A DNA stretch of 64,000 bases from Gordonia jinghuaiqii (GTDB lineage: Bacteria; Actinomycetota; Actinomycetes; Mycobacteriales; Mycobacteriaceae): positions 2,728,001 through 2,792,000 of the forward strand of contig NZ_CP059491.1 of NCBI RefSeq assembly GCF_014041935.1. The letters are read 5' to 3'. The stretch's first letter is position 1; every line of letters begins with the position of its first letter. Positions 1 through 12,684 of the stretch are shown piece by piece. The notes beneath the pieces are model-generated. The model was given only the letters and a program-made list of their open reading frames with translations, was not told the origin of the DNA and made no database searches. The position numbers and the translations under genes were made by a program.

Positions 1-2086
1 CGATATACAACCGAACTAGATCTCGGTAGTGGCGGCGGTAGCCAAACCATCGACCCATCTGCATGAGCGTATCGGCGGCAGTTGTCCTCCGTGTGTAGTA
101 CGAGACCGTCAGGCCCTCCACTGTGAACCCACGAGATAGCTTGGTGCCGCCGACGAGGACCTTCCAGACGTCGCCAGACTGAAAGTCTATGTCATCCTGA
201 AGATAGTCTTTCTCTGCGACGCCGTTTACGATAACGACAGGGTTGACGCCCATCTGGATTTTACCGACTGCGTGCCCAATGTGGGGGATCAGTTCGGCGA
301 ATCCCGCGATTCCCGGCTCTGTCGGTGCACGAGCAGCGGTTACTCTCCGGAAGTCGTTAGTCCACAGGTCCTGAAGTCGTTTAAGTCCCATCGGCAAGTC
401 GTAGCCCGCCGAAGTCCAGACCCGACGAATGTCGTTGGCGAGGGCGGCGTGCTCAGCGGTGCTAACCGACTCGTGGACCAGCATTGTGTGGTGGCGAAAT
501 AGCCTGGGCTTGCCGAGTTTGGAGGCACGCTGAAGCTTGATGGCCCCGGCGAGTACGTATGCGTCCAGGGCACCAAGCATTTCGTTGTCACGGGCCTTCA
601 GGTCGTCCGGCGCGGCGAGGAGTGGCCGGACGTAGGCCTTCTCGTTCGAGTTAGCGACGGTGCGCGGAACGTCTGCTTCAGCGCCGTCGTCCGGGTCGTC
701 CCGCCCGAGATCGTGGAAGGCATTGCCACCCATGTAATCTGCTGGCGGCTTCAGACTGATGATGAAATCCTTAGGGAAGATGTCTTCGGAGTCCTCAGGA
801 TCGACAAATACGTTCGCGAACGGCGTGGCGGTATAGCCGACGTACTGGGCACGCTTCAGTTCGCCTAGAAGCTGTGCGATTCGGCGGTTAATCGCCGTGC
901 GTTCTTTGGCTTCCTGGGATTCCTTGTCCTTCTTCTTTTTCGGCCTCGTCGTGTTGATTGACGCTTGGTCCGCCTCGTCGTCGATAATCAGTGTGGGTAT
1001 CTCGCCAAGGTCAGTCTTGGTGGATTGCAGGTCATGTACGAAATGCTCAAGTACCTTGGAGTTCTTCTTGACCACGGCAATACGGATGTCCGGACGATGG
1101 AGGTTCTGAGGGTCGTAGAGCGGGCGCGCAGGGTCGACGAGGTGATCAGTCTGGCGGAAATCTAGGTATCCAAGTCCGGCCTTGAGGAGCTTGTAGTCGT
1201 CGCGCGCACCCGTCAGCCGACGGATTCCGGGGACCCCGAGTTCCTTTGGGTCCTTACCATAGGAAACAAATTTGCCCTCGTACCAGTCGAGGTCGCCGTC
1301 GCCGATGTAGTCGACCGAGGACGTGAGTTCCTTATCGTCGCGAGGTACCCCGCCGAGAATGTTCTCCTCTCCGACGAGTTCCATATCAAGCCGGCGCTGA
1401 GTCTGTCCGCGCAGTAGTTCAATGGTGCCAGTAAGGACGATAACGAGCTTGTATCCTGCATCGATCGCTTTAGCGATCACACCTGTGAAGTTGGCGGTCT
1501 TCCCGGACTGTACGTGGCCGACCACCAGGCCTTTCGATTGGTAGGGGTGTTCCTGCGCGGGATTAGCCAAGCGTCTGACCACCTCGTCGGTAGCGCGGTT
1601 CAATTCCCCGATTGCGTCTGCATCCATGTCCTTGGATTCGAGGACGCCACGGTATCCGTCCCAATAGAAGGACCGTTTCGCGTCGGCTTCGTACCAGGGA
1701 TCCCAGTCGGCGGGCTTTCCTGAGATCACGACAGCGCCAGACAAGTTCAAGTGGAAGGCATCGTTGATCCTGGTCTGCGCCTCGTCGGAGAAGCCAAGAG
1801 CTACAAGGATTGCGTCCCTCCGTCCCTGCGAATAGGGCGGCATGCTCGACGCCCACCGCGGGTCCGGTAGAGCGTCCCACTTGGAGAGCTGAATGTGGAA
1901 CTCGTAACGAGCGGGTGCGTTCACGTCGGAGGCGGCGATCGCGTCAACCAAGTCATTCTCCGAGAAGACCGCGTTGATCCCTGCGTCGTCGAGCTCAAAG
2001 CACACGCGCTTAAGCATGGGCTTGGGATCACTCTTGCTCATGCTGCGCACGACACTTACGATCGCATCAGTATATCGGTCGGTCAA
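1..2086 (-). CDS. Z1 domain-containing helicase-like protein, C-terminus beyond window
   Basis: At least 695 residues, open to the window edge, so partial at its 3' end. A Walker A-like GHVQSGKTANF lies near residues 190-200, DDEADQASINT near 367-377 and QMGRWFGYR near 677: the conserved signature of the Z1 family (superfamily II-type ATPase found with restriction systems). The N-terminal 180 residues are a non-motor domain. The start is a TTG 3 bases after the stop of the upstream nuclease gene; an in-frame TGA immediately precedes it and AGGAGG sits 8 bases upstream, so TTG is well supported. Last visible gene of the five-gene defence polycistron. By family, the likely role is ATP-driven DNA translocation or remodelling with the neighbouring nuclease and GHKL ATPase; the exact activity is inference. 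Confidence 0.9.
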   Translation of the reverse strand, partial: MTDRYTDAIVSVVRSMSKSDPKPMLKRVCFELDDAGINAVFSENDLVDAIAASDVNAPARYEFHIQLSKWDALPDPRWASSMPPYSQGRRDAILVALGFSDEAQTRINDAFHLNLSGAVVISGKPADWDPWYEADAKRSFYWDGYRGVLESKDMDADAIGELNRATDEVVRRLANPAQEHPYQSKGLVVGHVQSGKTANFTGVIAKAIDAGYKLVIVLTGTIELLRGQTQRRLDMELVGEENILGGVPRDDKELTSSVDYIGDGDLDWYEGKFVSYGKDPKELGVPGIRRLTGARDDYKLLKAGLGYLDFRQTDHLVDPARPLYDPQNLHRPDIRIAVVKKNSKVLEHFVHDLQSTKTDLGEIPTLIIDDEADQASINTTRPKKKKDKESQEAKERTAINRRIAQLLGELKRAQYVGYTATPFANVFVDPEDSEDIFPKDFIISLKPPADYMGGNAFHDLGRDDPDDGAEADVPRTVANSNEKAYVRPLLAAPDDLKARDNEMLGALDAYVLAGAIKLQRASKLGKPRLFRHHTMLVHESVSTAEHAALANDIRRVWTSAGYDLPMGLKRLQDLWTNDFRRVTAARAPTEPGIAGFAELIPHIGHAVGKIQMGVNPVVIVNGVAEKDYLQDDIDFQSGDVWKVLVGGTKLSRGFTVEGLTVSYYTRRTTAADTLMQMGRWFGYRRHYRDLVRLYI

Positions 2087-2089
2087 CGT

Positions 2090-3085
2090 TCATCCCTCCT
2101 GCGTGAATACTGGACTGATGAAGCCGGTGAGCGGCTCGCCCGGGTCTCCTGCAGTGCGCGAGGAGACGTCGACACGATAGGACACGGCACTGACAAGATT
2201 GCTGTGAGGAACGACCGCCTCCAGACGACTACGTGTGACCGCTGGGAAGTCATCATCCACCAAATATGCCGTTGGTGTCGTGCGGAGGATGTACGCCGTC
2301 GGATACATTGCGGCGTCGTCGTCCTCCCAGGCTTCTGATGCAAGGTATGTCACGAACCTGTCCCGAGTCGAAGTCAGCTGTTTGCGGATCTCCTGGACCA
2401 GCCCTGGGAGAGTGATGCCGTTCGGATCGCCACCGGCCCGGGTGATTTGAACGGACACGAGCCAGAGTGGCCGGCTGGGGTTCGGCTCGAGCTGACCCGC
2501 CCCATGGATCACATGAGTCCTTGACTCGCCTAGTGTGGTCTTGACCTCAGCATCAAAGGTTGGGAAGGCGTAGTCGCGCTCCTCAGCGAGCGGGCCCAAC
2601 CACCATTCAATCGCTGAGCACTCATCGAAGCCGTCGATTAGAGCTCGGAACAACAGTAGCTCGCCAATCAGCCCGATCTGTTTTTCTTCGGAGATCCGAG
2701 GTTTGGCTGCGAGCATCGTCTTCATGTTCGTTATCGCGGCCGCCGTCGCAGCCGCAAAGGTCGCTCCGCCGCGCATTGCCTGGACGATGGACAGCATCAG
2801 CCCGTAAGCCTCTGTGTACATGTTGCGTGCATCGACTGTAAAGCACGCCCACTCGCGGTCGGCTCGTACCTCGACACCTGTGCTGACCCGCTTCAGTGAA
2901 GCCACGTCCTGCACCATCCCACTGTGGGGTGTCAGTAGCGAGATTTTCTGTCCGGGGCCGTCAATTCTGAGGATAATCTCAGGAGCGCAGGAGAAGGAAT
3001 GGGAAGTTACCGTCCCGCTGCGGAAGTACTTTTCCAATGTGTCCGGATCTAGCTCTGACGACTGTTCGCTCATTTGGACGGTCAC
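2090..3085 (-). CDS. PD-(D/E)XK motif nuclease (DUF4420-like)
   Basis: 331 residues. A glutamate in the helix GLIGELLLF (E142) is followed by an Asp-rich strand and EVK (E180, K182), the arrangement of a PD-(D/E)XK fold nuclease; length and layout match the PD-(D/E)XK proteins found beside Z1 helicases. GTG start overlaps the TGA of the GHKL gene (GTGA), suggesting translational coupling; an ATG 12 bases downstream is an alternative. Probably the DNA-cutting subunit of the defence system. Which Asp (171 or 178) completes the active site cannot be decided by eye. Confidence 0.85.
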   Translation of the reverse strand: MTVQMSEQSSELDPDTLEKYFRSGTVTSHSFSCAPEIILRIDGPGQKISLLTPHSGMVQDVASLKRVSTGVEVRADREWACFTVDARNMYTEAYGLMLSIVQAMRGGATFAAATAAAITNMKTMLAAKPRISEEKQIGLIGELLLFRALIDGFDECSAIEWWLGPLAEERDYAFPTFDAEVKTTLGESRTHVIHGAGQLEPNPSRPLWLVSVQITRAGGDPNGITLPGLVQEIRKQLTSTRDRFVTYLASEAWEDDDAAMYPTAYILRTTPTAYLVDDDFPAVTRSRLEAVVPHSNLVSAVSYRVDVSSRTAGDPGEPLTGFISPVFTQEG

Positions 3086-4590
3086 TTACCTTCCGCGATT
3101 TGTGCTCCGATTGCAGAGAGGAGGATGGCCTGCCAAGCCGATTCCTCCCTCTTCTTTTTGGCACCACTACCCGTGCCGACGAAGTGATCCTCCAATAAGA
3201 GGAGCAGCAGGCTCTTGATGAGAGGCGCGTCGTCCATGTCGAGGCTCTTGTGCCCGACAACTGCCGACCTGTACCTCGCATTGAGGACAAGGCGGTGGCT
3301 TCGAAGGTCTACATCGTAAACCTGGTCCTCGGGGAGAAGGCTCCATCGGATGTCGATCGGAAACGCATCATTGGGTTCAGTATGGATGGCAAACGCGTCC
3401 TTGACCGGGACCGGGAGGCCGCTGCCAGGCATCGGTGCTTCGATGGGCGAGGCCGTCCGCTGCTTGGCCAGCTTCGCCGCATGCGTCGAGTCCTCCCGAA
3501 ATGACGCGAGCGTCGTTCCGTCCGCCGCGCGTGCCCGCATCAACGCGCCGCGCAATTCGTCGTCGAACGTAGTGCCGATCTTCTCGGGGTTGATAGCGAC
3601 ATGGTTTTCCATCTCATCTGAGAGGTCGAGCGCTACGCGGGCAAAGGCCAGATCGGGCCTTGGGGTCGCCAGACCGTTCCAGCCGCCTGCCTGGAGAAGC
3701 CTGTCGTTGCGATAAATGTAGAGGCCCTGAGATTCGGTCTCTGAGCGCCCTCCCAGTACGAACCCTGGGCCTTTGTCGTGGTGTGGCCAGATGTGTAGTT
3801 GCGCTGTCCCAGTGGCGTTTCCGACGACCACTGGGAGCTGCTTCGGGTAGCCTGTCTGCCCCACACCTCGATAGTGGAACGGATCGATGGCTCTCACCAC
3901 TCGTGGAGGTCCGGGGGAAGCCAGGTTTACATCGAAGGTGTCGATCGTGAGCTCCAGATCCCCGCGTTCGAGGATTCGGTGCAGCACTAAACCGAGGTGG
4001 TTTGTCAATTCCTGTGTGGTTCGATTAGTCCATGCCCGCTGCTCGTCTTCGCTGGATGAAGTGAGAAAAGTCTGAACGTCCTGCCATTCGACAATGGTGC
4101 CGGTGTCCATCACGAAGTCAACCTTCGGGCTGGCCATGCGCTCGGCGGCATCAGTGGCAGAAAATTCTTCGACCACCGGGCCAGTGTCTATCGTCTCCCT
4201 ACGCAGACGCCGGCCTACCGGCGGCGACCCGTAGCGCTTCGACCAGACAATCAATGTGTTCGCTTGACTAAGCGACGCGGCCTTGAGCCCAATTCCGAAG
4301 TGCCCCAGATCGTGACCCTGATACTCGCGCTTCTTGGCATACGTCATCGCGTCGTCGATGGCGGCCGAGTCCATACCCGACGCGTTATCGATCACCTGCA
4401 GGCCGACTGGTCGTGCTCCGCGCATCAACAATCTGACCAGGACATGCGTGGCACCGAAGTCGATGCTGTTATCCACGAGGTCGGCAACGGCCGAGGCCAG
4501 TGTGTGGTGGCGCCCGATGGCCGACGTGATGGACGGATCGGGAGGGACGACCCTCGAACCGATCGGCTGCGGTGCGGAAGTCGTCCCCAC
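3082..4590 (-). CDS. GHKL-type ATPase, MORC/MutL-like
   Basis: 502 residues. The N-terminal Bergerat ATP-binding fold is clear: N-box ADLVDNSIDFGA (residues 36-47), DNASGM (68-73) and glycine-rich lid GHFGIGLK (96-103). The N-box has Asp where MutL/gyrase families usually have the catalytic Glu. Published analysis of prokaryotic MORC and paraMORC proteins places such GHKL ATPases in restriction-modification neighbourhoods with SF2 helicases and nucleases, exactly as here. GTG start overlaps the TAG of the DUF499 gene by one base. Inferred role: ATP-gated clamp or conformational switch controlling the PD-(D/E)XK and Z1 partners. Confidence 0.85.
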   Translation of the reverse strand: MGTTSAPQPIGSRVVPPDPSITSAIGRHHTLASAVADLVDNSIDFGATHVLVRLLMRGARPVGLQVIDNASGMDSAAIDDAMTYAKKREYQGHDLGHFGIGLKAASLSQANTLIVWSKRYGSPPVGRRLRRETIDTGPVVEEFSATDAAERMASPKVDFVMDTGTIVEWQDVQTFLTSSSEDEQRAWTNRTTQELTNHLGLVLHRILERGDLELTIDTFDVNLASPGPPRVVRAIDPFHYRGVGQTGYPKQLPVVVGNATGTAQLHIWPHHDKGPGFVLGGRSETESQGLYIYRNDRLLQAGGWNGLATPRPDLAFARVALDLSDEMENHVAINPEKIGTTFDDELRGALMRARAADGTTLASFREDSTHAAKLAKQRTASPIEAPMPGSGLPVPVKDAFAIHTEPNDAFPIDIRWSLLPEDQVYDVDLRSHRLVLNARYRSAVVGHKSLDMDDAPLIKSLLLLLLEDHFVGTGSGAKKKREESAWQAILLSAIGAQIAEGK

Positions 4591-7500
4591 TACAGGTCCC
4601 GGAAAGCGCTGTCCACCACACCAACATCCTTGGCGTTCTGCTTCACCGCACGAACTGTGTTGGCGTCGAATCCGTCGGCTTTCTGTGCGTCCACCGTCAA
4701 CGTGACGTCGAGGACGTCAGGGCCAGCGTTACGCAACACCTCGAGGATCTCCTGGGCGATCAACTGCAGCTCGCCGGGCATATTGGCATTGGGGTCGACG
4801 ACGTGACGGAGCGAGAATGTTGCGTTGGAAACTGTCGTCCGGGGCTCGGGGGCCGGCGGATTAGGCCGGCGAGGTGTTGTGGTTCTCGTGTCCGTCGTCG
4901 GTGTCGGCTCTGGCGCAGGCTCACGCTCATTCTCTTGTTCGCGTCTTCTTTGCTCGACCGCGAGATCCGGTCGCACCACCAATGTGGTTGCGTCGAACGG
5001 CCCGAACTCGGTGTCCGCCAGCGGAACCGCCAGTCCGAGGAAGTCGCCTGTCGTCGAGTCGAACCCGGTCGCAAGCGCGAACCCAGTGTCAATGAACGCG
5101 GCGTCGAGGAGAGACTCCTCTAAGGCCCTGACGAGCACTGACTTGTCCCGCAGCCTATGGAGATAGGGGTAGCGACAATAGTAGGCCCACAGCTCTGTGA
5201 AGTTGAGGAACCCGCGGGTCCACCGCGCGCGCAGAAACTCCTCAATATCGATCCGAATAACTCTGTTGGCGACGTAGGAGTGGGCTGCGTCGACCGATGC
5301 GAGCTTGACGCCAATACGTTTGGTGAGATTCTTCTCCTGCCCGTCTGCGCGCACTTGCCCCACAGCGAATGGCGCCTGGGGGTCGTCTTGCACAGCATGC
5401 ATTCCCCAGATCCACGTGTGGGCTAGGCGGTCGTCGACCGTACGGTTGGCAGTCTCCAACATTGACTGCGCCTGCGCGGCCGCCGACTGCGTCAGGTCGA
5501 GCCGGGTCGTCTCGTTGAAGATCGAGTTCCACGCCTGGTACGAGCGTACTGCCGACTCTAGCGTGCCCCACTGCTTTTCGTCAGCCGCGACCGCAACAAG
5601 GGTGTTGACGTTCGAGCGAGGAGCGTTGCCTCGCTGGCGCAATAAGTCGTGCACCCACTTTGAGGCACTGGATGCCTTGTCCTTGCCGTTGTGATTGTAC
5701 TGGGGTGGAACGACGACCAGGCGGAGGTAATCGGCCTCCTCGACGTCGGAAGACGACTCAGGATGCACGACCTCGGCGATAATGTCGTTGGAGCCCTTGA
5801 ACATTACCTTGAGCCGCGCTGCAACCTCGGCGTGGACAGCGTCTATCGACAGTTGAGCGGCGCGTTCAGCAGCTAGGCGGTTGAGCGACGGCTGACTGTC
5901 ATACCAGTATCGGCCACCCTCGGAGTAGTAGTGCGATGACTTTTCCTGGAGCCCGTCCAGCGCTGACCCGATGTTGCCGAGCACGTCGCCAGGCATCGCG
6001 ATACCGAGCGTGATGCTCTTGCGATCCTTGCCCTTGAGCGCGGAATCGAGGGTAGGCGTGGCTTCCAGAAAGATCGTTCGCGCCGTGCGCAGTGCGAGGG
6101 AGCGATCTTTCAACACGGGACGCTCGGCGTCGACGATTCGGGCGACGGCATTCTGTCCGTCGATCTCGGATTGGATGATCGCGTCCCACGCATTATCAAC
6201 GTACTGGGTGATCTCCGACCGGACGGGCTGCGCGTCGAGTGGGACCGATCCGGTCATGACGAGTGGTGATGGGTCCTTGAGTTCGTAGAGTTGGTGAACT
6301 ACGTGGCTCATGAGGCGCAGCACCCCACGCGTGCGCTGGAACTTCTCCAATGTCGACCAGTCAGAGTAGAGGCGGTCGAGAAGTTCAGGGTGAATAGGGT
6401 ACGCGGCTCTAATTCGCGCTTCGTATGATGAGTCACCGACACCGGTCGGAAATTCCTTGGGGTGGTTGCGGTAGTAGTCTGTGAACCGGCGTGCCGCAGT
6501 GGCGATGGTCGCAATCGCCTTCGCATCCGCTTCGACGAACAGCCGCCTTCGAACGATTTCGTAGGATTCGTCCCTGGTGGCCGGGCTCCATTGGTAGGCC
6601 ACACGGCGAATGACATAGTCCAGTCGGTGCAGAGCGTCGCGTCCGCGCTGTCCACCAACCTCGAGATTGTTCGCCTTGGCCTCGTGTCGGTCCGGGCTAC
6701 TCTCGCCGGACTTGGCTGGTCGGCCCTCACTTGCCGGTACCGACACGAGTAGAAGGGTGCCGGGCACGTTCTCTGCCGCGAGCGTCAACGCCTGGGCGAA
6801 GGTGAACTGTGTCTCGAACAGGCCGGCCGCCACTCTTTGAACGTGTGGGTCAGTCTTGTCATAGCTGTCCGGGAGCTGTCGGGCGTAGGCGACCCATTCG
6901 TCAATCAGGATGACCGCTGGTCCGAACTCGTGGAACAACTCGCGCAGCAGGTTACCTGGGTTTGTACCGGTTCTGTCGGCATCGGCGACGATAGCGTAGC
7001 CTTCCGCGCCGCCAAGTTGCCACGCAAGTTCACCCCAAAGGGTGTGCACCACAGTGCCATCGGATTTGCGAGACGGGGTCGAGGGCGGAATTTCGTTGCC
7101 CACCAGAGCAGCCTTGTGCACTGCCCTGCTGAGGACGTCCGTGTCGTGCCCGCACAATAGATCCTGAACGGTCTGCGGGAACTCGTGCAGAGCCCGACCC
7201 GAGAACATGTGCCACACGGCCAACATCGAGTGGGTCTTGCCTCCGCCGAACGTGGTCTGCAGATTGATCACGGGGTTGGCCGACGGCGATCCGGAGATGC
7301 GGTCTATCGCTCGACGGAGCAGCTCCTTGAGGCCGTCGGTCAGGTATGTGCGGCGGAAGAACTCGACCGGATCCTGGTATTCTTTGGCCGCATTCTGCTG
7401 TACCGCCACCGAGTACAGGTCAGCGGCGAACTCGGCGTTGTTGTATCGACCCGAAGCCACGTCCGGGTGCGGCTTTAGTACCGCGCGCCAGGGCGGCAGC

Positions 7501-8003
7501 TCGGCATCCGGCGTGCCCGGTAGCGCCATTGCCTCGCGAACTGCCTTACGCGTCTGCTGTTCGAAACTGCCGCGCAGGATGTCCAACCGTGACGTGCGCA
7601 CCGCATCGGCTTCCCGGACCGCACCGATGGCGCGCATTACCCGCTCGATCGTGTCTAGCGCTCGGATTGCGTCATCGGGGGAGAAGGGCTTGAAGTGGGC
7701 GACGTTATTGCGCACGCTCCGCAGCTCACTTACAAATCCCTGCTCTCCCCGTGACAGGTGGTCGTTGAAGATGTACCCAAGCGAAGACATCGGTTCGGTG
7801 ATGACTCGGAACTGATCCTGAGGGTCCGTACGGGAGTACTCTTTGCCGTGGATGCCTCTCTCGGCGTCCTTTGCCGCGAGAAGCACGGTCCAGTCGTTGC
7901 CTGAGGGCACGTACTTGATGGTGACCTGCTCGATGTACGGATCGAGAACGTCGGACAGGGACTGGAGCGCCACACGCACCACATCAATGTTGCTCTTGGC
8001 CAT
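4590..8003 (-). CDS. DUF499 ATPase with N-terminal Swt1/HEPN-like domain
   Basis: 1137 residues. The first ~130 residues resemble the HEPN-like domain seen in Swt1-type proteins and carry SVRNNVAHF (residues 96-104), which fits the HEPN R-x4-H signature. A P-loop ATPase follows: Walker A TTFGGGKTHS (250-259), Walker B AVILIDEW (363-370). DUF499 proteins are large ATPases usually encoded next to DUF1156 methylases in defence islands. ATG start overlaps the TGA of the methylase by one base. The C-terminal tail (~1010-1080) is Pro/Glu/Thr-rich, probably a flexible linker, followed by a short basic/acidic domain. Role in the system is unknown; energy-dependent sensing or loading is inference. Confidence 0.85.
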   Translation of the reverse strand: MAKSNIDVVRVALQSLSDVLDPYIEQVTIKYVPSGNDWTVLLAAKDAERGIHGKEYSRTDPQDQFRVITEPMSSLGYIFNDHLSRGEQGFVSELRSVRNNVAHFKPFSPDDAIRALDTIERVMRAIGAVREADAVRTSRLDILRGSFEQQTRKAVREAMALPGTPDAELPPWRAVLKPHPDVASGRYNNAEFAADLYSVAVQQNAAKEYQDPVEFFRRTYLTDGLKELLRRAIDRISGSPSANPVINLQTTFGGGKTHSMLAVWHMFSGRALHEFPQTVQDLLCGHDTDVLSRAVHKAALVGNEIPPSTPSRKSDGTVVHTLWGELAWQLGGAEGYAIVADADRTGTNPGNLLRELFHEFGPAVILIDEWVAYARQLPDSYDKTDPHVQRVAAGLFETQFTFAQALTLAAENVPGTLLLVSVPASEGRPAKSGESSPDRHEAKANNLEVGGQRGRDALHRLDYVIRRVAYQWSPATRDESYEIVRRRLFVEADAKAIATIATAARRFTDYYRNHPKEFPTGVGDSSYEARIRAAYPIHPELLDRLYSDWSTLEKFQRTRGVLRLMSHVVHQLYELKDPSPLVMTGSVPLDAQPVRSEITQYVDNAWDAIIQSEIDGQNAVARIVDAERPVLKDRSLALRTARTIFLEATPTLDSALKGKDRKSITLGIAMPGDVLGNIGSALDGLQEKSSHYYSEGGRYWYDSQPSLNRLAAERAAQLSIDAVHAEVAARLKVMFKGSNDIIAEVVHPESSSDVEEADYLRLVVVPPQYNHNGKDKASSASKWVHDLLRQRGNAPRSNVNTLVAVAADEKQWGTLESAVRSYQAWNSIFNETTRLDLTQSAAAQAQSMLETANRTVDDRLAHTWIWGMHAVQDDPQAPFAVGQVRADGQEKNLTKRIGVKLASVDAAHSYVANRVIRIDIEEFLRARWTRGFLNFTELWAYYCRYPYLHRLRDKSVLVRALEESLLDAAFIDTGFALATGFDSTTGDFLGLAVPLADTEFGPFDATTLVVRPDLAVEQRRREQENEREPAPEPTPTTDTRTTTPRRPNPPAPEPRTTVSNATFSLRHVVDPNANMPGELQLIAQEILEVLRNAGPDVLDVTLTVDAQKADGFDANTVRAVKQNAKDVGVVDSAFRDL

Positions 8004-10840
8004 CAGTCCTCATCCTCGAAGTCGAACTCTGTCTGCATTGCGTCAGGGTTTCGTACTCGGCCTGCTGCTTCGGCAAGGTCCGTCCACGAGCCGCCGACCA
8101 GGTTGAACAGCCGTGCATCATCGGTGCGTGACGTCTTGGTCATTTCGTACAGTCGGTATGCCAGTCTCTGTACGGCCTCGATGTCTACCTCGGACCGCGT
8201 TGCCGCGGCGGTCAGGAGTCCGCCCGCAGCGTCCAGTCCCCCGTCTTCGGCGGTCATTACCCGGCAGAGGTGACACATCAACGACCAGACTGAGATTCGA
8301 TCGTCCGTGATCGGGTTCCAGTTTGCCGAGAGCTCGTCTGGAGCGGATAGTTGGACGACCCCATCTCCCTGTGTCAGCACGCCCATATTCGCAACACCAC
8401 TAACAGACGTGTTGTAGGAGCGGGCCAGTAGGTCTGCGTCACCGAAAGGTCCCTTTTCCCAACCATATTGTTCGTACCACTTCACGCAGAAACGCGTGTC
8501 CGCATCGAGGTCGCCTTCTTGGGCGGTTAATACCTCGTCAAGCGACTGGTTGATTAGAGATAGGGCCGTTTTCACCGACATCTCGGTGCCGTCATTCTCA
8601 AAAACTCTACGATAGTTCGAGAACACAGCCATACCGGGGCCGAGTGTCGCCTGCGCGAGGTCTACTGGTGCTATTGCACCTTCCCGCATTCTCTCCAGTG
8701 CATCTGGCAACGTGCGCTTTAGAGCGGCGACAAACCCTCTGCGAGTAGTGTGCCCGGCGGTCTCGACGCGCGGGCGCAAGACAAGGACAATCGACGACGC
8801 TAAAGCGTTAGAGCCAATGCTTCGAAGCCGATTCGGCATCTCGGACCGGATCGGCCAAGTCGCTGTGATTACCCAGCCAGAACGGATCATCCCGTCGAGC
8901 ACCGTTGCCCACCCAGTCGAGGTGGTCCCTTCTTTGCTGAGCTCTTGTTGCTTAAATGCGTAATAGACGGTCATAGGATAACTTCCCGAAACCGACTGAC
9001 GCGCGTTTTCGAAGACCTTTCGAAACCCATTCTCGAAGAACTGCTCAGCGCCACTTGCGCCACCATGTCGCGCGGGCTCGGCAACCAGCTCCTCTTCTTT
9101 CGGTACGAGCATCGTTGGGAACAGTGTGGGATGAATGTGTCGCAGTGACCGTCGGAGCCAGATGTAGAACAAATCGCTCAAGGCGGCGTATCCAACATTA
9201 TTGTAGTAGGGGGGATCGGTCGAAATAGCGAAATGAGCGTATGAGCGGTCAGCCGCGTCCGCCTGCGAGACGTGCCCGGCCGTGCTGTCCGGCACGGCGC
9301 CGAGTGCTCGCTCAACCCACGCGAAGCTCGCCGATATATCGGCGCCGGCGTTGCCGAAAGGGTTGGACTCAACATAGCCCGGGGACATTTGGAGCTTAGG
9401 TCCTGCAAAGGCGCTGCGCTCATACTCCTTCTTCGGTCCGCTATCCCAAGTGGTCATTCGAGAATGCCGGTCGACAAAGCGGGAGATGCCAAGCCCGAGG
9501 TAGGTTGCGACGGCATCCGCGTAGGCTGCGGCTCCGGTCCCTCCTTGTGCAAGAGGAAGGCCTACTTGAAGCCCCCCCGCGACCGCGTCCGCAAGAACGC
9601 GCTCGCGGGTAGCGCTGACCAAATCGCTGAGGACCGTGAGCGCGGTCAGTTGGCGGTTCGTGAAGAGCTGAGACCACTCGGTGTACCCATAGCCCTGGAC
9701 TCGGAAACCGAGGGCAGCCTTGGGCAATGATCCAGTTGGCCTCGAAGCTGGCGATGCGGCATTCGCTGCACGCACGTGCTCGGATGTCGGAGCGAGGTAG
9801 ACGCGGCTTCGTCCTCCCTGCGCGACTATCGCCATCAGCTGATCGCCAATGCGACCGGCCTTGCCCTCCGATCGGATATATGAGCCAGGTGAGACACTTC
9901 CGCAAGCGATGCATCGTCCGTTCCCGCCTGCTGATGTCCCGTCATCTGCGGGGGTTGGGGCCTTCGCCGAGTCGTGACCGATAAGGAACTTTACGCGTCG
10001 GCCGCTGGGGGTATCGGTGTCGTTGACGACAATAGGGACTACATACGACTCTTTGCCCTTTTTCTTCCCCAGCCACCACGAGTTGACAAGCGGCATCTCG
10101 ATTGCGCAGGCCGGGTTAGAACAGGTCACGGTGCGGGCCCAGATCCACGCGATCGTCATAATCTTGGCTATCGCCTTTGTCTTGTCGTCGACGATGATGG
10201 CGTCAGGGTAGAGGTGTCCGATATGCTCCTTAGCCTGCTCGCGCATCCAGGCGCCGTAGCGGCGTACGTCCACCGCGAGGCCGGTGGCACGCGGCCAGTC
10301 GCCGAGCTCTGCGTCGGCGGCGCCCGGGAAGACTGGCGGCCTGCCGGCGAATCTCGGCGGGAACTCGATGAGTGCCTTGTTGATTAGCACGGCCACGGGG
10401 TTGAGGTCCGAGGCATGCGCATTTAGACCGAGGCGCTGCGCTTCGAGGGGGATTGTGCCACCACCGGCAAACGGGTCGAGGATCGCGGGCGGGTTGCCGC
10501 CGGTGGACTTGAGGATCTCCTCGTGCGCCTCGCGAAGGAGCGCCTCGTTGTTGAAGTTCTCCCACTTGACGAGACGTCTGATGATCCCGTGAAGCCGCTC
10601 ACGCTCGGCCTTCTGCTGTTCATCGGACAAGTCCGGATCTGAGGAGGGGTCGTCAACGAGCTGTGCGAAGAGTACGGCACGAGCTGCAGCCAGTGGTTTC
10701 CGCGACCACCAGAGGTGGAGCGTTGATGGGTGGCCGTGACGGATAGACTTCTCGCGCACTGACGCGGCGTTGATGTCGTCCAACGGGATCGATACCTCGA
10801 TCAGCTTCTTCCGAATCGGGGCGTCAGGCGTCGTCGTCAT
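8003..10840 (-). CDS. DUF1156 family DNA methyltransferase
   Basis: 945 residues. Begins with the DUF1156 signature (basic N-terminus, HPSTLHLWWSRKPLAAAR at ~38-55). SAM-binding motif I DPFAGGGTIPLE at ~122-133, catalytic motif DPPYY at ~542-546, so an amino-methyltransferase (N6-adenine or N4-cytosine) is expected. Cysteine pairs at ~240/245 and 310/313 between the motifs suggest a zinc ribbon. First gene of the tightly coupled polycistron. ATG start with GGAG about 10 bases upstream. Target sequence unknown. It may mark host DNA so the downstream nuclease and helicase module spares it. Confidence 0.88.
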   Translation of the reverse strand: MTTTPDAPIRKKLIEVSIPLDDINAASVREKSIRHGHPSTLHLWWSRKPLAAARAVLFAQLVDDPSSDPDLSDEQQKAERERLHGIIRRLVKWENFNNEALLREAHEEILKSTGGNPPAILDPFAGGGTIPLEAQRLGLNAHASDLNPVAVLINKALIEFPPRFAGRPPVFPGAADAELGDWPRATGLAVDVRRYGAWMREQAKEHIGHLYPDAIIVDDKTKAIAKIMTIAWIWARTVTCSNPACAIEMPLVNSWWLGKKKGKESYVVPIVVNDTDTPSGRRVKFLIGHDSAKAPTPADDGTSAGGNGRCIACGSVSPGSYIRSEGKAGRIGDQLMAIVAQGGRSRVYLAPTSEHVRAANAASPASRPTGSLPKAALGFRVQGYGYTEWSQLFTNRQLTALTVLSDLVSATRERVLADAVAGGLQVGLPLAQGGTGAAAYADAVATYLGLGISRFVDRHSRMTTWDSGPKKEYERSAFAGPKLQMSPGYVESNPFGNAGADISASFAWVERALGAVPDSTAGHVSQADAADRSYAHFAISTDPPYYNNVGYAALSDLFYIWLRRSLRHIHPTLFPTMLVPKEEELVAEPARHGGASGAEQFFENGFRKVFENARQSVSGSYPMTVYYAFKQQELSKEGTTSTGWATVLDGMIRSGWVITATWPIRSEMPNRLRSIGSNALASSIVLVLRPRVETAGHTTRRGFVAALKRTLPDALERMREGAIAPVDLAQATLGPGMAVFSNYRRVFENDGTEMSVKTALSLINQSLDEVLTAQEGDLDADTRFCVKWYEQYGWEKGPFGDADLLARSYNTSVSGVANMGVLTQGDGVVQLSAPDELSANWNPITDDRISVWSLMCHLCRVMTAEDGGLDAAGGLLTAAATRSEVDIEAVQRLAYRLYEMTKTSRTDDARLFNLVGGSWTDLAEAAGRVRNPDAMQTEFDFEDED

Positions 10841-11007: not shown

Positions 11008-11460
11008 TTACGGCGTCGGTATCCGTCGGGCGGACTTCCCGTGGCGGACAATCTCCTCTATGTCGGTGGCTTCCTGTTTCATGTCCTCATGCTCCCAGAC
11101 TCGGAGCACAGTCCAACCGTGGGAGCGTAGATGAGTGTCCGTCACACGATCCCGCTCGATGTTGCGGGCAAGTTTGGCCGCCCACCACGCACCGTTGTTC
11201 GTGGGCGCAGTCTTGTGCTCGGGACACCCGTGCCAAAAGCACCCATCGACGAACACAGCGAGCTTCGCGCGAGTGAACAGAATATCCGCACGCCGACGGG
11301 GCAGCCCTGGGAGCGGAGCGTCGACTCGGTACCTCAGACCTCGTCGATGGAGCTCGCGCCGAAGGAGCATCTCGGGTTCCGTGTCACGAGTTCTTTGTCG
11401 GGACATGCGCCGAGAGGTCGTGATGTCGACAGACCTCGCTGGACTCGCGGAGTCGGTCAT
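11008..11460 (-). CDS. vsr: Very short patch repair endonuclease (Vsr)
   Basis: 150 residues, close to the ~156 of E. coli Vsr. Diagnostic sequence: RRADILFTRAKLAVFVDGCF at ~56-75 continuing WHGCPEH, then a WWAAK block and GWTVLRVWEHE. The Asp of RADI (D59) and the His of FWHGC are the expected metal and catalytic positions. Vsr nicks T:G mismatches that arise when 5-methylcytosine deaminates at a Dcm-type site, matching the divergent C5 methyltransferase. ATG start with GGGAGG 7 bases upstream. Confidence 0.93.
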   Translation of the reverse strand: MTDSASPARSVDITTSRRMSRQRTRDTEPEMLLRRELHRRGLRYRVDAPLPGLPRRRADILFTRAKLAVFVDGCFWHGCPEHKTAPTNNGAWWAAKLARNIERDRVTDTHLRSHGWTVLRVWEHEDMKQEATDIEEIVRHGKSARRIPTP

Positions 11461-11496: not shown

Positions 11497-12684
11497 GTGT
11501 CGACCTTCAAGCGATTATCTGACTCCGAGCCGATGCTGGCGACCCCGCCGCGGCGTAATGCGAAGATCACGACGTTGGATCTTTTCGCTGGCGCTGGCGG
11601 GTTGTCGGAGGGGTTGAACACAGCTCCCGGCAAGAGGTTCAAGGCCGTCCGGGCCGTGGAGTGGGAACTCGCTGCTGCAGCCACGTATACCCTCAACCAC
11701 GGTGGACGCCTGCGCGACGGCGCCGTCGAAGGTGGACCCGTGTACGCGGGAGCTATCGAAGACTGGCTCGCGGAGGATGACGTTCCGCAGGTTGACGTCG
11801 TGGTCGGCGGGCCTCCGTGTCAAGGGTTTTCGACCCTAAACCGAAACGGCGTTGGAGCTGACCGGAACGAGCTCTGGAACCTTTACGCGCAGACCGTAGA
11901 GAAAGCCAAGCCGAGCTATTTTGTGCTGGAGAACGTTCCCGCTTTCCTGAAGTCCGAGCAGTGGCTTGTGTTCCTGGAGGCGCTCAGGAGAGGAATCCTC
12001 AGGGACTACGAGATCAACTTCGGAGTCCTGAACGCCGCCGATTATGGAGCGGTCCAGGCGCGAAAGCGAGTGATCGTTGTCGGCCACCATAGGGACCTAC
12101 CAGCGCTCGGCCTACCCGAGCCAACCCATGCCGCTGGCCACCGTCACCTCGCCGAAGCGCTACTTGATGTACCTCGCGCGGTCGACCGGATCGGCATCCC
12201 GGCTGGCACGGTTCGGTTCCGGGAGGACGAGTTCCCTGGGGTCTTCTCCACCCGCGACCTCCACTTCGGACGTTCCTATACACAGCTCTCGCTCGACCGG
12301 TTCAAGGCGATCTCACTTAATGGCGGCAGCCGATCGGAGCTACCAGACCACCTTAAAGCTCCTTGCTGGCTAAAGCACAGCAAGGGAACTGGCGATGTCA
12401 TGGGTCGGCTGACCTGGGAAAAGCCGTCTGTGACGATCCGCACAGAGTTCTTCAAGCCGGAGAAGGGCCGCTATATCCACCCGGACGAGGATCGAGTCAT
12501 CACGCACTACGAGGCAGCGCTCATCCAAGGTTTCCGTAAGGACTATCGATGGGTGGGTAAGCGTGAGGAAATCGCGCGTCAAATTGGCAATGCAGTTCCG
12601 ATTCCACTCGGCGAAGCGATTGGACGCTTGCTCATAGAGGGGATGGACGAAACCGAGGGTCTTGCGGTCGCCACGTCGGCTTAG
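11497..12684 (+). CDS. DNA (cytosine-5-)-methyltransferase
   Basis: 395 residues with all main C5-methylase motifs: I DLFAGAGGLSEGL (28-40), IV GGPPCQGFS (104-112, catalytic C108), VI ENVP (145-148), VIII QARKR (187-191), and motif X near the C-terminus (EIARQIGNAVPIPLG). The target recognition region lies between VIII and IX. GTG start, only 36 bases from the divergent vsr start, so the promoters must overlap. Paired with Vsr it forms the modification and repair arm of the island; recognition sequence unknown. Confidence 0.93.
   Translation: MSTFKRLSDSEPMLATPPRRNAKITTLDLFAGAGGLSEGLNTAPGKRFKAVRAVEWELAAAATYTLNHGGRLRDGAVEGGPVYAGAIEDWLAEDDVPQVDVVVGGPPCQGFSTLNRNGVGADRNELWNLYAQTVEKAKPSYFVLENVPAFLKSEQWLVFLEALRRGILRDYEINFGVLNAADYGAVQARKRVIVVGHHRDLPALGLPEPTHAAGHRHLAEALLDVPRAVDRIGIPAGTVRFREDEFPGVFSTRDLHFGRSYTQLSLDRFKAISLNGGSRSELPDHLKAPCWLKHSKGTGDVMGRLTWEKPSVTIRTEFFKPEKGRYIHPDEDRVITHYEAALIQGFRKDYRWVGKREEIARQIGNAVPIPLGEAIGRLLIEGMDETEGLAVATSA

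Follow-up and report, generated by a model that had tools for sequence, protein, structure and literature searches.

Hma, the DUF499-centred group of BREX-related Type-1 systems, is characterised in the available text of PMC8565338 and PMC12839542 by an adjacent, coupled DUF1156 N6-methylase (HmaB) and HEPN-DUF499 ATPase (HmaC), and typically includes, at that locus, HmaA, an SNF2 helicase that in most cases carries a fused nuclease. A second described arrangement, the operons of MORC ATPases, superfamily II (SFII) helicases and restriction endonuclease (RE)-fold nucleases, is associated with DNA methylases, which are mostly of the cytosine and rarely of the adenine kind, as well as with VSR, helicases and nucleases, and the passages of PMC2292703 describing these neighbours do not name a DUF499-type ATPase. 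The 64,000-nucleotide stretch of the Gordonia jinghuaiqii genome analysed here (contig NZ_CP059491.1, positions 2,728,001 to 2,792,000; hereafter the window) carries an array that draws on both: it is the methylase-ATPase half of Hma without its usual DNA-cutting partner, joined instead to MORC-ATPase, nuclease and helicase genes.

The hybrid array and its proteins

The array and its immediate neighbours are:

1..2086, minus strand: helicase gene of the array, called Z1 in the preliminary description
2090..3085, minus strand: DUF4420 PD-(D/E)XK-type nuclease, MzaD-related, 331 or 327 amino acids (Pfam DUF4420; PADLOC MzaD)
3082..4590, minus strand: MORC-family GHKL ATPase, MzaB-related, 502 amino acids (Pfam HATPase_c_3; PADLOC MzaB)
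4590..8003, minus strand: HmaC-type AAA+ ATPase (DUF499), 1137 amino acids, with an N-terminal Swt1-type HEPN domain (PADLOC HmaC, 753 bits; HEPN_Swt1, DUF499)
8003..10840, minus strand: HmaB-type N6-adenine DNA methylase (DUF1156), 945 amino acids (PADLOC HmaB, 1049 bits; Pfam DUF1156)
9221..10000, minus strand: hypervariable HmaB region of about residues 281-540, in the target-recognition position flanked by motif I and DPPY
11008..11460, minus strand: Vsr-type endonuclease, on the same strand as HmaB and 167 bases upstream (Pfam Vsr)
11497..12684, plus strand: Dcm-type C5-cytosine DNA methylase, transcribed away from Vsr (Pfam DNA_methylase)

The joining of a DUF1156-DUF499 pair to GHKL, nuclease and helicase genes, as first described from the letters of the window, is thus borne out. 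In the window, as in most of its relatives, all five reading frames are uninterrupted and their motifs complete, and the adjoining genes of the two modules overlap by 1 base, a feature kept among hybrids. The DPPY motif of HmaB lies at residue 542 and is also present in the 7 other hybrids aligned. Across residues 281-560, the identities of 40-residue blocks are 0.34-0.67, with a lowest sliding window of 0.29, versus 0.71-0.97 elsewhere in the protein, except for the last block (0.58). Such variability, which in canonical HmaB is similar but less sharp, argues for a role of this block in specificity.

HmaC of the window contains the motifs RNNVAH, GGGKTHS and LIDEW, and the Rx4H motif of its HEPN domain is shared with 8 of 9 other hybrids, the exception being locus L142. 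There (L142:5513-8371), the HmaC N-terminus, comprising HEPN and P-loop, is replaced by an SNF2 helicase head, downstream of a 974-residue open frame without a Pfam or PADLOC family match. A HEPN-DUF499 fusion has been proposed as a backup suicide effector (PMC12839542, available text). Because the fusion is also common in canonical Hma, where HmaA is the effector (the same source finds it in 1370 of 2446 Type-1 taxa), the HEPN domain leaves the exchange of effector unexplained.

The GHKL protein shows the features by which Iyer et al. (2008) define the MORC family, namely the GHKL motifs, an S5 domain and the motif GhXhhpXXRhl, here GLYIYRNDRLL (residues 289-299), and its predicted fold ranks SMCHD1 and MORC3/4/2 as top structural matches. 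Where the second GHKL motif (residues 68-74; plus-strand 4368-4389) usually has the form DxGxG, the window protein and those of four close hybrids read DNASG, and that of one further hybrid DDASG. The DUF4420 nuclease has a conserved E and DxEVK, and the predicted fold of residues 124-324 weakly matches DpnI, SPARDA and EcoRV. The helicase carries the motif DTLMQMGRWFG.

Absence of HmaA and recurrence of the array

An SNF2 helicase of the HmaA type is missing from the window array, and a whole HmaA was found in none of the 10 hybrid loci, L142 holding just the SNF2 head fragment fused to HmaC. Of 33 non-hybrid HmaC loci from the HmaC search, 31 were examined (two with E about 3.5e-4 were omitted), and 28 of these have an HmaA-like match. 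These include matches at 30-38% (L109-L111, L113), one on the other strand (L088), a terminal fragment of some 60 residues (L099) and, in L086, whose contig begins inside HmaB, a weak match (34%) lying downstream of HmaC. Contig ends truncate L100 and L114, and L104 (genome G006), an HmaC relative, has neither an HmaA nor an HmaB match within the 19.5 kb examined. An HmaBC pair without a nuclease partner would be without a DNA-cutting effector. An orphan relative of the HmaA helicase-nuclease lies 1.68 Mb from the window in the same genome (G000:C1 about 1044650-1048070; L115:7650-11069, minus strand); it is 68-82% identical to a canonical protein and is broken, aligning in three pieces with two changes of frame, and neither HmaB nor HmaC occurs within the 19 kb examined.

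Whether the gene order extends beyond this strain, as the preliminary description asked, can be answered in the affirmative: the array recurs in other actinobacteria and is therefore no accident of one strain. The order is kept in L141, with the five proteins at 43-52% identity. GHKL matches occur in 36 of 394 class genomes; at E <= 1e-40, 18 of 397 order genomes have one, and so does a single genome, the window's own, out of 396 for the phylum. Hybrids were seen among matched genomes in G000, G279, G561 and, decayed, G401. The neighbourhood comparison covered matches assigned a locus, which G577 and G686, for example, are not: wide regions were examined for 24 loci and about 1.5 kb flanks for 19 weaker ones (L015-L033). 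Both members of the window's HmaC clade found through the HmaC search carry the MORC, nuclease and helicase trio.

Protein searches, in both of which the window's own cluster is included, returned 81 GHKL clusters at >=61% identity among the best 120 of 996, and at least 120 DUF4420 clusters at >=65% identity (best 120 of 248). The best 120 GHKL and best 120 HmaC clusters share 39 longest contigs of equal size, an indirect sign of co-occurrence that leaves adjacency unproven; these include the window's own and that of G279, and 9 of the 39 stand at 50-55% GHKL and 52-61% HmaC identity. On contigs of >=15 kb, 24 of 40 close GHKL clusters (16 unmatched) and 6 of 15 farther ones are size-matched in the HmaC list, as are 6 of 29 HmaC clusters at 48-61% in the GHKL list; with one contig named per cluster and only the best 120 clusters compared, misses are expected.

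Vsr occupies the same place in L034, L044 and L141, and is in pieces in L036. Relatives of Dcm have the corresponding position in L036, L044 and L141, with a 105-residue remnant in L034. Dcm was not seen upstream of the array in L037 and L038, though the five-gene array is kept. In L037 (G. amarae; 591-3409), genes for a reverse transcriptase and an HNH protein occupy the place that Dcm and Vsr have in other hybrids; they may form another defence system.

Do the two halves work together?

We tentatively infer that both halves act as one machine, a reading about as likely as not. The proposal of a single composite system is partly supported: the array and its order recur, but the modules are separable and part company in some loci. 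Further points weigh against it: distances correlate moderately across the modules (0.39-0.68), the two trees place G. amarae differently, and the sample is biased to GHKL loci, through which nine of ten hybrids were reached. The HmaC tree holds 29 non-hybrid rows (L110, L111, L113 and L114 fell under the coverage cut-off, and plasmid loci L155 and L156 were added), and the GHKL tree is without L039, which is too short.

The surroundings bear on a different explanation, a chance fusion without joint function, spread by horizontal transfer in defence islands. The island has a GC content of 0.60 versus 0.655-0.675 in its flanks, and adjoins JetB, a relative of which at >=71% identity is present in 21 of 31 genus genomes (its own included) and weakly in two more. 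Gene content downstream of JetC varies among the six congeners compared. An MTES_1575 nuclease, a SIR2-like protein and genes of type I restriction are among what three congeners scanned with Pfam have there, so that this stretch has the look of a defence hotspot. Low GC and a variable hotspot would suit chance fusion, as would the decayed copies L142, L045 and L036; in L045 (5463-5984), a DUF1156-only HmaB stub between Vsr and MORC is apparently the leftover of a lost HmaBC pair. Set against five open genes with intact motifs, the order kept in L141 and the 81 close GHKL clusters, however, chance fusion appears highly improbable. JetABC (Wadjet/MksBEF-like) is found at L002:6914-12605 and in congeners L166-L175, with no match to JetD (PF09983) in the 4 genus genomes searched.

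Implications and relation to known systems

If the two halves do act as one machine, a BREX-related methylase-ATPase core can swap its destructive effector wholesale, which predicts that specificity resides in the core and that effectors can be exchanged for one another. It would also link a MORC protein of bacteria with a system that methylates adenine, offering a simple setting for asking how MORC ATPases act on DNA in response to methylation.

With Hma, the window shares the coupled pair and a similar variable block in HmaB. With Mza (mzaABCDE; PMC9523054, available text), it has in common MzaB-, MzaC- and MzaD-related proteins (PADLOC profiles), the three PADLOC matches in the array having E values of 4.2e-29, 5.5e-71 and 3.4e-11. 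The AIPR protein (MzaE, PF10592) was found in none of 7 hybrid genomes searched. The neighbours scanned likewise include no sigma factor (MzaA), no search being aimed at MzaA; unlike Mza, the window array contains HmaBC. Closest to the other half are the third type of MORC/SFII helicase/RE-fold nuclease operons, as set out in the available text of PMC2292703, which share the MORC motif, the helicase motif DThhQXuRhFG, the E...DxEVK nuclease and the Dcm and Vsr neighbours; unlike these operons, the window array has HmaB and HmaC between Vsr and MORC.
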